The position numbers were made by a program, and so were the translations under genes. This document shows positions 3,250 through 6,279 of a DNA stretch of 11,385 nucleotides, piece by piece (the stretch's first letter is position 1; each line of letters begins with the position of its first letter). The DNA is from Competibacteraceae bacterium UBA2792 (GTDB lineage Bacteria; Pseudomonadota; Gammaproteobacteria; Competibacterales; Competibacteraceae), in contig DEHU01000017.1 of NCBI GenBank assembly GCA_002352125.1, positions 7,162-18,546 of the forward strand. The letters are read 5' to 3'. Below the pieces are notes generated by a model, which was not told the DNA's origin, did not search any database, and worked only from the letters and a program-made list of their open reading frames with translations.

Positions 3250-4248
3250 ATGATAAAATCTTTTAGGTGCGAACAGGCACTCTCTCGATTATCGGCCATC
3301 GTGAACCTCGATACCCTTGTTGCCCACGTCAAAGCCAGCCCCCTTCATTTCGACGCCGATACCACCAGCGAAGACGCCTTCGTCGCTGTGATCGGCGCCT
3401 GTTTGCGTCACGCCGAGGCCAATCGGCCAGCGGTGCTGAACGGCGGGATCGAGGGTATTCATCAGATGCGGGTGGCGTTCCGGCGGCTGCGCTCCGGCCT
3501 CAAGATTTTCCGGCCGCTGATTTCGCGCGAAGCGAGCGCCGAACTGGTCGAAGACGTTCGTTGGCTGAACGGGTTTCTGGGACCGGCCCGCGACTGGGAC
3601 GTGTTTCTGGAGGACGGGTTGTCGCCGGTGTTCGGCCGTTTCCCGCGCAAGCGCGGTCTCGTTTGGTTTCGGAGCAAGGCTGAAGCTATCCGCCAAACCC
3701 ACCATCGGGCCTTGCGGCAAGCTTTGGCCGAGCCTCGTTATCCGGCCATGCTACAACGATTCGCCGATTGGTTGAACTGCCATGCTTGGCGGGATGGCTC
3801 CAGCGACAAACAGCGCGAACGATTGGCGGAACTGGTGACGAGTTTCGCCGCGCCGCTGCTCGAACGCGACCACCGGCGAGTGGTCGAACGGGGCGAATCG
3901 TTCTCCGAACTGTCTGCCGAACGGCGGCACGCGCTGCGTATTCGCGTCAAGGAACTGCGCTACGCGCAAGATTTTTTCGCCAGCCTCTACCATGCGGCGA
4001 CGGCCAAAGCTTATCTGGGCACCTTGGCCAAGTTGCAGGACTGTCTGGGGGTCATGAACGACGTTGCGGTCACTCGCCGGTTGTTGGATGAGGCGGGCTT
4101 AAAGTCGGCGTCCGCTGCACGGCAAGTGATCGAAGGTTGGTACGGCTGCCGGCTGGATGTCCACGAACGCCTGTTCGCTGAAGTCTGGCAACAATTCGTG
4201 GAGTGCGAGCGGCCTTGGAAAGATCGACCGGCACGTTTTGGGCGGTAA
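3250..4248 (+). CDS. CHAD domain-containing protein
   Basis: This is a stand-alone CHAD (conserved histidine alpha-helical domain) protein of 332 aa. CHAD domains are known to bind polyphosphate through basic helices, and CHAD proteins localise to polyphosphate granules in several bacteria. The hallmark HQMRVAFRRLRSGLK is at residues 71-85, LGPARDWDVF at 110-119, RIRVKELRYAQDFF at 230-243 and LAKLQDCLGVMND at 259-271. Together they show the two-fold helical repeat with its Arg/Lys/His surface. No CYTH (triphosphatase) domain is fused or adjacent. The start is uncertain: ATG at 3250 has no clear Shine-Dalgarno and sits inside an A/T-rich promoter-like stretch, while GTG at 3301 would give 316 aa and keep the whole domain. 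It may be co-transcribed with the MmgE/PrpD gene 76 bases downstream. A role in polyphosphate storage is inference from the family. Confidence 0.88.
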   Translation: MIKSFRCEQALSRLSAIVNLDTLVAHVKASPLHFDADTTSEDAFVAVIGACLRHAEANRPAVLNGGIEGIHQMRVAFRRLRSGLKIFRPLISREASAELVEDVRWLNGFLGPARDWDVFLEDGLSPVFGRFPRKRGLVWFRSKAEAIRQTHHRALRQALAEPRYPAMLQRFADWLNCHAWRDGSSDKQRERLAELVTSFAAPLLERDHRRVVERGESFSELSAERRHALRIRVKELRYAQDFFASLYHAATAKAYLGTLAKLQDCLGVMNDVAVTRRLLDEAGLKSASAARQVIEGWYGCRLDVHERLFAEVWQQFVECERPWKDRPARFGR

Positions 4249-4308
4249 CTGCAATCGAGGGAAACGGCCCGCCGAATCCGGCCCGTCTTCGGTATTTTGT
4301 CGTGATCC

Positions 4309-4316
4309 AGAGGAGA
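4309..4316 (+). promoter_or_regulatory. Ribosome binding site of the MmgE/PrpD gene
   Basis: AGAGGAGA ends 8 bases before ATG 4325 and fixes that start; the same frame is open back to 4157, inside the CHAD gene. The 8-mer GAGGAGAA at 4310-4317 is an exact complement of the loop of the proposed small RNA at 5767-5774. Confidence 0.7.
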
Positions 4317-4324
4317 ACAGAACC

Positions 4325-5611
4325 ATGCGTAACCCGACGTTGACTCAACGATTGACCGAACTGATCGCCACCAAGCCGGTCGCTGCCACCGATCTGGAAC
4401 ATGCGGCACTGTTGACGTTGGACGCGCTCGCGAATGCGTTCGCGGGCCGGGCGAGCGAGCCCGGCGCGATCCTGTTGCGCTGGGCCGGCGAAACCGCCGT
4501 GATCGATGCCGCGCGCCGCGCTTTTTTGCTGGGGTCGCTGACCCACATTTTGGAAACCGACGATTTGCACCGCGCTTCGGTAGTGCATCCCGGTTGCGTG
4601 GTGATACCGGCAGCCTGGGCGGTGGCGATGCGGGAAGGAATTCGCGGCCACGCCATGCTCAAAGCCGTGCTATGGGGATTCGAAGCGGCAACCCGAGTGG
4701 GCATGGCGGTCGGACCGGCCCATTACCGAATTTGGCACAATACCGCCACTTGCGGGCCATATGGCTCGGCTATGGCAGCAGCGGCGCTGTTGCAGCTCGA
4801 TGCGGCGGCGACGGTCCATGCGCTGGGCAATGCCGGCACTCAATCCTCCGGGCTGTGGCAATTTTTAGAGGCTGGAACGATGACCAAACATCTGCATGCT
4901 GGTCGAGCGGCGGAGGCGGGGGTATTGGCGGCGGATTTGGCACGCTTCGGTTTTACCGGGCCGCCGGCGATTTTGGAAGGTTCCAAAGGTTGGTTTGCCG
5001 CCACCTGTCCCGACGCCGATCCCGACGCGGTGACGCGCGATCCGGACGGCCCTTGGCAACTGCTGCGGACTTCGGTCAAACCTTGGCCTTCTTGCCGCCA
5101 TACTCATCCGGTGATCGATGCGGCGCAGGAGTTGCGCCAGCACATCGTGGCCGGCACCATCGAGCAGGTTGAAGTGGAGACGTATCCGGCGGCGCTGGAG
5201 GTTTGCGACCGGCCGCAGCCGCAAAGCGATTACGAGGCCAAGTTCTCGCTACAACATTGCGTGGTGGCGGCTTTGGCGCGCGAGAACGTGGATTTTGCCG
5301 TTTTTGCCGAGCCGGAGCGAAAGGCGCTGGCAGATTTGCGGAAGCGAGTGACCGTGCGGGTGGCCGAGCCTTACGCTTCGGCCTATCCGCAGTCTTGGGG
5401 TAGCGCGGTGACGGCGACGGTGCGCGGCGGCGAACGGTTGACGGTGCGACGCACCCACGCCAAGGGCGATCCCGAGGCGGCGCTATCGCCGGTCGAACTG
5501 ATCGCCAAGGCGCGGATGTTGATGACTTACGGTGGAGTGCGCGATCCGGATCGGCTCATCGACGCGATTCTGGCTCTGTCCGACGATTCGGCATTGCCGG
5601 AGTTGCCTTGA
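4325..5611 (+). CDS. MmgE/PrpD family protein
   Basis: This is a 428-aa member of the MmgE/PrpD family, which includes 2-methylcitrate dehydratase, cis-aconitate decarboxylase and iminodisuccinate-type lyases. All are cytosolic enzymes acting on small di- or tricarboxylates. The helical domain holds the active-site region ILETDDLHRASVVHPG (75-90, with D79, D80, H82 and H88), then NTATCGPYGSAMAAA (139-153) and MTKHLHAGRAAEAG (186-199, with K188 and H191). The second domain carries CRHTHP (257-262) and YEAKFSLQHC (303-312). These are the segments that line the active site in characterised members, and none is missing. No other methylcitrate-cycle gene (prpB, prpC, acnD) is nearby, so a prpD name is not justified. 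ATG 4325 is supported by the Shine-Dalgarno at 4309-4316. Likely transcribed with, or just after, the CHAD gene. The substrate is unknown. Confidence 0.88.
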   Translation: MRNPTLTQRLTELIATKPVAATDLEHAALLTLDALANAFAGRASEPGAILLRWAGETAVIDAARRAFLLGSLTHILETDDLHRASVVHPGCVVIPAAWAVAMREGIRGHAMLKAVLWGFEAATRVGMAVGPAHYRIWHNTATCGPYGSAMAAAALLQLDAAATVHALGNAGTQSSGLWQFLEAGTMTKHLHAGRAAEAGVLAADLARFGFTGPPAILEGSKGWFAATCPDADPDAVTRDPDGPWQLLRTSVKPWPSCRHTHPVIDAAQELRQHIVAGTIEQVEVETYPAALEVCDRPQPQSDYEAKFSLQHCVVAALARENVDFAVFAEPERKALADLRKRVTVRVAEPYASAYPQSWGSAVTATVRGGERLTVRRTHAKGDPEAALSPVELIAKARMLMTYGGVRDPDRLIDAILALSDDSALPELP

Positions 5612-5630: not shown

Positions 5631-5679
5631 GGCAATGCAGCAAAATTTTGAGGCTTAACCTATTGTTTGAGCAACAAAA

Positions 5680-5704
5680 CGTTGTTTTTTGCCGAAAAAC
5701 AACG
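5680..5704. repeat. Perfect 10-bp inverted repeat upstream of the small RNA promoter
   Basis: CGTTGTTTTT (5680-5689) and AAAAACAACG (5695-5704) are exact complements around a 5-base centre, TGCCG. There is no T-run after it on the plus strand, so it does not look like an intrinsic terminator. Its centre lies about 44 bases upstream of the -10 element at 5736-5741, a distance at which activators often bind. It could instead form a cruciform or an RNA hairpin in readthrough transcripts. I do not recognise the site as a known operator. Confidence 0.55.
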
Positions 5705-5732
5705 CAAAGTAGTGTGTTTACTCTAAAATTTT

Positions 5733-5741
5733 TGATAAAAT
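5733..5741 (+). promoter_or_regulatory. Extended -10 promoter of the candidate small RNA
   Basis: TGATAAAAT fits the extended -10 pattern (TG, one base, then TAAAAT at 5736-5741, one mismatch from TATAAT). No good -35 is seen at normal spacing, but extended -10 promoters can work without one. Initiation 7-8 bases downstream would fall at 5748-5749, exactly the base of the first hairpin. Confidence 0.55.
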
Positions 5742-5747
5742 ACGCGC

Positions 5748-5839
5748 TGTGTAGCAGGCATTTATCTTCTCCTCGGTCTGCTACACATCCTCCTTTGGTG
5801 GTTTTTGGCCGGACACCTTTGTCCGGCCTTTTTTATTTT
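5748..5839 (+). ncRNA. Candidate small RNA with anti-Shine-Dalgarno-like segments and intrinsic terminator
   Basis: A compact transcript of about 90 nt is suggested by a promoter, a hairpin and a terminator placed with no slack. Hairpin 1 pairs 5748-5759 with 5776-5787: ten perfect pairs (TGTGTAGCAG with CTGCTACACA), one G-U and one C-G. Its 16-base loop contains TTCTCCTC (5767-5774). A single-stranded or weakly paired linker follows with CCTCCTTT (5789-5796), which resembles the 3' end of 16S rRNA. The RNA ends in a 9-bp GC-rich terminator stem and a T-tract (5807-5839). C/U-rich loops that pair with ribosome binding sites are a known design in bacterial sRNAs, for example the alpha-proteobacterial anti-SD RNAs and Xanthomonas sX13. 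I do not recognise this one as a named family. The alternative is a 5' leader or attenuator of the HNH gene, whose start lies 11 bases after the T-tract. Confidence 0.6.
5807..5839 (+). terminator. Intrinsic terminator of the candidate small RNA
   Basis: GGCCGGACA (5807-5815) pairs perfectly with TGTCCGGCC (5820-5828) around a CCTT tetraloop. It is followed by TTTTTT, A, TTTT (5829-5839). This is a strong Rho-independent terminator on the plus strand only. Confidence 0.88.
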
Positions 5840-5850
5840 GAGGGCTGCAA

Positions 5851-6192
5851 GTGAGTGAAGTGCCCGACCTCACGACCGAGCTCCGTCGTCGCGTTCCCCC
5901 CAAGCCAGATCGTTGCGAGTTGTGTGGCCGCGTCGTGGCTGCACTAACCCGGCATCATCTGATTCCGCGTACCCGCCATCGCAAGAAACGTAACCGGCGT
6001 CTGTTCGATCGCCAGGATGTCCGTACCCGCATCTTGTGGATTTGCCGCCCCTGTCACGACCACATCCACGAAGTACTGAGCGAGAAGGAAATGGAGGCGG
6101 ACTATCACAGTCGCGAGGCGTTGCTGGAGCATCCGGCAATCCGCCGTTTCGTGGCCTGGATCGAGAGCAAACCGGAGGGATTCAAGCCGTGA
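5851..6192 (+). CDS. Small HNH endonuclease-like zinc protein
   Basis: This 113-aa protein has the layout of a minimal HNH/beta-beta-alpha-metal fold. CELC (C22, C25) and CRPC (C65, C68) form a probable zinc knuckle. LTRHHLIPRT (32-41, with H35 and H36) supplies the HN-type catalytic His, and CHDHIH (68-73) the second metal-binding His pair. The linker is very basic (TRHRKKRNRR, 41-50), which suits nucleic-acid binding. Such stand-alone HNH proteins are widespread in bacteria and I know of no established role. There is no methylase, toxin or phage gene beside it, so restriction or homing is not supported by context. GTG 5851 is chosen because GAGGG (5840-5844) lies 6 bases upstream. The start directly follows the small RNA terminator, so expression from that promoter would need readthrough. 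Confidence 0.82.
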   Translation: MSEVPDLTTELRRRVPPKPDRCELCGRVVAALTRHHLIPRTRHRKKRNRRLFDRQDVRTRILWICRPCHDHIHEVLSEKEMEADYHSREALLEHPAIRRFVAWIESKPEGFKP

Positions 6193-6222: not shown

Positions 6223-6279
6223 ATGCGAAGAGGCGAAGTCGGGCGAAAAAAACCCCGCTTTCGCGGGGTTTCGTTTTAG
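6223..6279 (+). CDS. Possible 18-aa micro-ORF overlapping a terminator
   Basis: A consensus Shine-Dalgarno, AGGAGG (6212-6217), lies 5 bases before ATG 6223, which opens a short basic frame (MRRGEVGRKKPRFRGVSF) ending in TAG at 6277-6279. The frame runs straight through the terminator hairpin at 6250-6271. The ribosome binding site is better than those of most genes here, but the peptide matches nothing I recognise and chance is quite possible. Confidence 0.2.
   Translation: MRRGEVGRKKPRFRGVSF
6250..6276. terminator. Bidirectional intrinsic terminator between the HNH gene and the yccA-like gene
   Basis: Positions 6250-6258 (AAACCCCGC, part of an A7 run beginning at 6246) pair with 6263-6271 around a TTTC loop, a 9-bp stem. 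It is flanked by A's on the left and T's (TTTCGTTTT) on the right. It can therefore end the plus-strand HNH transcript and the minus-strand membrane protein transcript. Confidence 0.85.

Follow-up and report, generated by a model that had tools for sequence, protein, structure and literature searches.

A probable anti-Shine-Dalgarno small-RNA gene of Competibacteraceae and its siblings with PhaR-type operator-like motifs

The main finding of this study is that positions 5748-5839 of the window—the whole stretch of 11,385 nucleotides analysed here, from Competibacteraceae bacterium UBA2792—very probably hold a real, evolutionarily conserved small-RNA gene, for which the evidence in the sequence is strong and which is predicted to be transcribed. 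In our preferred reading, to which we assign a probability of about 0.75, this is a free-standing gene for a trans-acting sRNA, an anti-Shine-Dalgarno (anti-SD) repressor of translation that is one of several siblings in a gammaproteobacterial branch of the kind of RNA represented by Rfam family RF02278, with the tandem siblings, and less surely the window copy, under the control of PhaR. This reading builds on observed conservation, covariation, synteny and copy number, on a core shared, nearly unchanged, with RF02278 members and on an operator-like motif at sibling and phasin loci. It would entail transcription, anti-SD pairing with target mRNAs, a contact with Hfq and binding of PhaR.

Results

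The candidate lies in an AT-rich stretch between prpD, which ends at 5611, and an HNH-like gene that begins at 5851 (Table 1). An earlier note on this DNA had described an extended -10 element, a 12-bp hairpin from 5748 and a strong intrinsic terminator with a 9-bp stem and a T-tract to 5839, and all three are borne out, the first by the sequence, the second by the fold, and the third by the fold and a terminator scan. The promoter is an extended -10 element without a good -35, and a sigma-70 scan of the window, a two-hexamer scan that does not cover extended -10 elements, reported no site there. The predicted transcription start falls at the base of the 5' hairpin, in which 5748-5759 pair with 5776-5787. 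Directly ahead of the terminator lies the C/U-rich anti-SD segment AUCCUCCUUU (5787-5796), and inside the core CAUC (5786-5789) could form a small stem with GGUG (5797-5800). The terminator stem (5807-5815 with 5820-5828) runs into the T-tract TTTTTTATTTT at 5829-5839. The predicted 92-nt RNA has a folding energy of -38.3 kcal/mol, whereas shuffled sequences average -17.28 (sd 2.62); this corresponds to z -8.0, and 0 of 200 shuffles reach that energy. Its terminator tops the 15 terminator-like sites of the window, a pattern that is by itself weak evidence because shuffling leads one to expect 12.7 (sd 3.5).

Table 1. Features of the candidate sRNA gene and its surroundings, in window coordinates
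Feature	Position	Strand	Evidence
MmgE/PrpD gene (prpD), upstream; true start probably further in	4157..5611	+	Pfam PF03972, PF19305
PhaR-operator-like site GCAATGCAGCA	5632..5642	+	pattern match; putative role
23-nt inverted repeat GTTGTTTTTTGCCGAAAAACAAC	5681..5703	.	kept in 25/27 window-type loci (<=3 substitutions, one indel allowed)
Conserved upstream box AGTRTGTTTACTCTAAA	5711..5727	+	alignment of 26 loci
Extended -10 promoter element TGATAAAAT	5733..5741	+	sequence; TGNTARRAT-like conservation in 26-locus alignment
5' hairpin, 12 bp, CUCCUC in loop at 5769-5774	5748..5787	+	fold, covariation
Core AUCCUCCUUUGGUGG, anti-SD segment	5787..5801	+	invariant 27/27
U-rich linker, possible Hfq contact (putative role)	5802..5806	+	sequence
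Intrinsic terminator, 9-bp stem and T-tract	5807..5839	+	fold, terminator scan, covariation
HNH-like gene, downstream	5851..6192	+	Pfam HNH 20.0 bits, cut-off 21.4

The candidate is conserved as an RNA. DNA matches were found in 31 of 59 genomes (its own counted), all from one family, and a pattern made of the core and the start of the terminator recovered 27 stretches from named genomes: 19 from Competibacteraceae, Competibacter or Contendobacter, one from Dichelobacter nodosus and seven under broad or apparently mislabelled names. In an alignment of 27 window-type copies, which leaves out two later finds (G059 and G060), AUCCUCCUUUGGUGGUU is invariant throughout, and the two main stems covary: 8/12 pairs of the 5' hairpin and 4/9 of the terminator change on both sides, with 92.6% and 96.7% of cells paired, respectively, these figures counting sequences and not independent events. 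Overall, 95.3% of cells pair, versus 35-40% when partners are slid. A middle helix of the minimum-free-energy fold (CC.CC/GG.GG) was dropped as uninformative because its four pairs never vary in the 27 copies. The CAUC/GGUG stem looked promising in a permissive scan whose 164 rows included chance rows; it shows both-sided change in 0/5 pairs among 53 aligned wide sequences and, taken alone in the window, is weak at -0.7 kcal/mol.

A model built from the aligned window-type copies (R1) finds the family in 37/39 Competibacteraceae genomes, missing only G002 and G003; in 29 of them the window-type match is strong (E<=1.7e-13). The model has no match in the single genome from another family of the order; E-values here and for the second model below are rough, and the genomes are drafts. 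The extended -10 and its spacing to the hairpin are visibly kept in the 26-locus alignment. The earlier note had also held that no plausible protein is encoded at the locus, and we agree: the 68-codon frame across the sRNA (5648-5854) has no Pfam match, and the longest sense-strand open reading frames over the homologous stretch vary in length, start and end among the 27 loci, so a conserved peptide was rejected. Homologues in related genomes thus keep promoter, spacing and stems and no peptide frame, and the two computational checks that the earlier note had called for leave its sRNA reading standing. The homologues, the sibling copies and the C/U-rich anti-SD segments go beyond what that note described.

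Competibacteraceae genomes carry further copies that share the core, as diverged solo copies and as a tandem pair whose members lie ~130-160 nt apart. In several inspected loci, with gene families read by eye, solo copies are found near an acyl-carrier-protein-like gene and the tandem pair between quinone-oxidoreductase-like and parC-like genes. The genome of the window has three matches, namely the window copy, C176 and C199; C199 has a TGC-rich promoter and contains unread bases. At this C199 locus (L107, in G000) the unread bases fall in a tandem-type sibling core at ~3530-3612, perhaps a tandem pair collapsed in assembly. At another locus (L111, G012 C12:103500-105600), a phasin gene is preceded on its own strand, at a distance of ~150-240 nt, by an sRNA copy, and TGC-rich repeats stand at the sRNA and phasin promoters alike.

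The core also reaches well beyond the family. R1 matches 73 of 369 genomes of the class, 69 of them outside Competibacteraceae. Of the 72 outside-family rows, all of which were retrieved, 59 have the 13-mer CCTCCTTTGGTGG unaltered and 70 have it with <=3 substitutions, while in 2 it could not be located; the commonest outside-family form is CUCCUCCAUCCUCCUUUGGUGG ahead of a variable terminator. A wider model (R2) was made from 53 sequences, 49 from outside-family rows, and in its alignment all 8/8 terminator pairs change on both sides, as do 0/5 of the middle stem. R2 matches 162/369 class genomes at E<=1e-3. Because the weak tail of its matches includes PrrF, SorX and mmgR, we counted at E<=1e-9, where it matches 107/369 genomes from 57 families; of these, 49 had contributed sequences to R2 and so match by construction, and 58 had not. 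A sample of 398 genomes from across the phylum, class members among them, gave 79 matches at E<=1e-3. The best match outside the class (1.5e-6) is SorX and another, L277, is an mmgR member (RF00519 at gathering score), and weak matches inside the class include PrrF. The sRNA had no match in a search of plasmids, and the only match among phages spans 20 bases, in two records of a single phage. One genome of another family has three successive cores with terminator-like stems, ~100-120 nt apart (L100).

How this RNA relates to named families requires some care. The earlier note could match it to none, which holds insofar as an Rfam 15 scan of the window gives no family at gathering score, so membership of a known Rfam family was rejected; it needs amending insofar as the nearest family, RF02278 ("Betaproteobacteria toxic sRNA"), is a sub-threshold relative at 34.0 bits against a cut-off of 50. 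Six of eight phylum-search loci that were checked are RF02278 at gathering, and four of these six (L266, L267, L270 and L272) carry the exact 13-mer after a CUCCUCC stretch, whereas RF02278 was found at gathering in 0/18 of the outside-family gamma-form loci checked. We read the window sRNA as a so far unlisted, widespread gammaproteobacterial branch of the RF02278 kind. That the RNA is indeed an anti-SD sRNA whose resemblance to RF02278 is convergent, C/U-rich segments followed by terminators arising repeatedly, seems unlikely to us: the wide model does weakly pick up PrrF, SorX and mmgR members, and 5' parts and neighbours differ, but the likeness exceeds composition, with the 13-mer of those four members exact and in the same place before the terminator. 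By title, a literature text search for the core returned no bacterial sRNA paper, and a search for Competibacter with small RNA found none. Separately, at L267, L268, L270 and L272 the RNase P RNA gene is followed, ~850-900 nt further on and in the same orientation, by an RF02278 copy.

The likely mode of action is suggested by the C/U-rich segments. CUCCUC in the loop of the 5' hairpin and the invariant AUCCUCCUUU resemble the 3' end of 16S rRNA, and the CUCCUC and UCCUCCUUU segments would pair with the SD sequences of mRNAs and thereby repress their translation, with Hfq probably seated on the U-rich 3' part, where the sRNA has a U-rich linker and a U tail. There is a precedent in Caulobacter SisA, overexpression of which is described as repressing many targets via an anti-SD 10-mer (PMC12559287). 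A search of the window's own genome for AAAGGAGG before ATG showed no enrichment (3, versus 3 in the backwards control), and this route to targets by SD pattern was abandoned. Phasins were compared in a duplex test in which start codons were chosen crudely and one phasin locus (L189) was left out since its start looked wrong: duplexes of the window-type loop average -12.0 kcal/mol on 29 phasin ribosome sites, -8.2 on 147 background starts and -10.7 on the 13 strong-SD starts among the background, while the core segment does no better on phasins (-9.6) than on the 13 strong-SD starts (-10.1). GAGGAGA or CAGGAGA occurs in 19/29 phasin sites versus 1/147 background starts. The test is suggestive but does not set phasin sites apart from other sites with a strong SD. 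It is quite improbable that the RNA instead acts as a sponge, of a protein of the Hfq or CsrA type or of another sRNA: multiple copies and a U-rich tail would fit, and G/A-rich sponges of anti-SD siblings are described in Caulobacter (PMC12559287), but the part that is invariant is rich in C and U, complementary to SD sequences, and no GGA-loop array is visible.

Two further explanations would deny the sRNA a gene of its own. Since it follows prpD, on the same strand, in 24/27 loci (a contig end truncates one of the three exceptions), it might be nothing other than the prpD 3' untranslated region with its terminator. We rate this as highly improbable: a conserved -10 and the 5' hairpin intervene, and siblings elsewhere have promoter-like sequences of their own. 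In the window the HNH-like gene has its start codon 12 nt past the T-tract. The idea that the RNA is a leader or attenuator acting in cis on this gene was rejected and is hardly credible, for the gene follows in only 7/27 homologous loci in which the RNA is kept, and sibling copies sit among other neighbours. The free-standing sRNA gene is the reading that we retain. Further along the window, AAACCCCGCTTTCGCGGGGTTT (6250-6271) looks like a bidirectional terminator between the HNH-like gene and a convergent Bax1-I (YccA-like) gene.

The promoters of the siblings point to a regulator. A motif for PhaR of S. meliloti, WNWD2NYGCRNYGCRNH2WNW, has been described for the promoters of mmgR and of phasin genes (PMC12542648), and it was with this motif that the TGC-rich repeats were compared as PhaR operators. 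Tandem-type promoters read like TTGACGCAGTGCARCA-N-TATACTGCATTGCARCA. In 20 large loci, GCRNYGCRRCA occurs within 110 nt upstream of 19/21 tandem-type cores versus 0/6 solo cores, a contrast that is partly circular, tandem and solo copies having been sorted by eye with the promoter in view; at one solo locus (L078) the operator scan recognised no core. The count at phasin loci is independent of this sorting: the same PhaR-type motif is present, anywhere in loci of <=3.3 kb, in 29 of the 30 best-scoring phasin matches with loci given (out of 39 genomes), with >=2 copies in 27, versus 4 matches in all 30 when the motif is read backwards. A stricter double-site pattern occurs in 5/39 genomes, always at a sibling locus, and its backwards control in 0. 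PhaR itself is encoded in 37/39 genomes and phasins in 39/39. Against a PhaR link stand the phaR loci, of which 3/20 have the motif, and the cores outside Competibacteraceae, which it precedes in 5/64 cases, versus 1/64 for a downstream control stretch. On balance, the sibling copies seem to be wired to the bioplastic-storage regulator PhaR, which would bind at their promoters.

The window copy also counts against the link, in that its PhaR-type palindrome is limited to a distal, imperfect site, ~115 nt 5' of the predicted start. One base departs from the published core motif, with G where C/T should precede the first GC. Of the window-type loci, 17/27 have a comparable site 136-166 nt 5' of the core. 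Its inverted repeat is centred at about -56 from the predicted start and is a possible activator site, or it could instead belong to prpD termination. Both this repeat and the conserved box AGTRTGTTTACTCTAAA could be regulator sites.

Discussion

Competibacteraceae are storage-polymer bacteria of wastewater plants. In the mechanism that we propose, the PHB-sensing repressor PhaR would control the tandem siblings, and less surely the window copy, and would in this way tie repression of the targets to carbon storage. As a tentative extension, which we hold at somewhat less than even odds, there may be a PhaR-controlled set of anti-SD sibling sRNAs in Competibacteraceae: PHB would draw PhaR off the DNA, tandem siblings would be made together with phasins, and translation of strong-SD mRNAs would be damped. 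This would amount to a feast/famine circuit parallel to that of alphaproteobacterial MmgR and built on a different RNA lineage, a branch of the RF02278 kind that extends across the Gammaproteobacteria as a class; the window copy would be a member induced in another way. Siblings and phasin genes of Competibacteraceae have the operator-like motif in common, so a connection of polymer storage to post-transcriptional control can be tested directly. More broadly, many other gammaproteobacterial families have the core. Rfam 15 cut-offs pass it over in those loci that were checked, so a translational regulator may lie unannotated in many genomes.

Comparison with known systems highlights important similarities and differences. 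RF02278 RNAs, which include ncS03/05/27/62 and bdhR1 of Burkholderia cenocepacia and to which S17 of Bordetella pertussis is related, are described as confirmed by Northern blot in Burkholderia (PMC4603805, PMC5688073) and reported exclusively from beta-proteobacteria (PMC7011215). Like the window sRNA, they begin this region with a C/U-rich stretch, followed by a hairpin or segment with CCUCCUUUGGUGG and then by a GC-rich terminator whose U tail is long, and like its family they come in several copies per genome, four being described in B. cenocepacia (PMC4603805). S17 also shares a variable 5' part ahead of a conserved region; it is reported to repress directly a gene for a sigma-54 activator, and S17S not to impair exponential growth (PMC11722255). 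One difference is that the window sRNA carries its first C/U-rich motif in a loop, that of the 12-bp 5' hairpin, which covaries. For an RF02278-type first hairpin around an anti-SD loop, the window offers a possible small stem, with both-sided changes in 0/5 pairs of the wide alignment and -0.7 kcal/mol when taken alone. PrrF (RF00444), SorX (RF02784) and SorY (RF02651) likewise have a C/U-rich linker ahead of a strong terminator, and PrrF and SorX members are weak R2 matches, but the window is far under the cut-offs of these families (26.6 of 90, 19.6 of 46.6 and 31.1 of 111, respectively).

A functional parallel may be MmgR/alphaR8 (RF00519), the family of Sinorhizobium MmgR and Caulobacter SisA-D, which also consists of anti-SD siblings with a terminator (PMC12559287). 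The window scores 22.0 bits against the cut-off of 41 of that family, and the 10-mer UUUCCUCCCU is absent from its sequence. MmgR is described as repressed by PhaR/AniA and as tuning PHB and phasins (PMC8401924, PMC12542648), and the PhaR-type operators that we predict at the siblings resemble, by analogy, this PhaR-controlled MmgR of Sinorhizobium.
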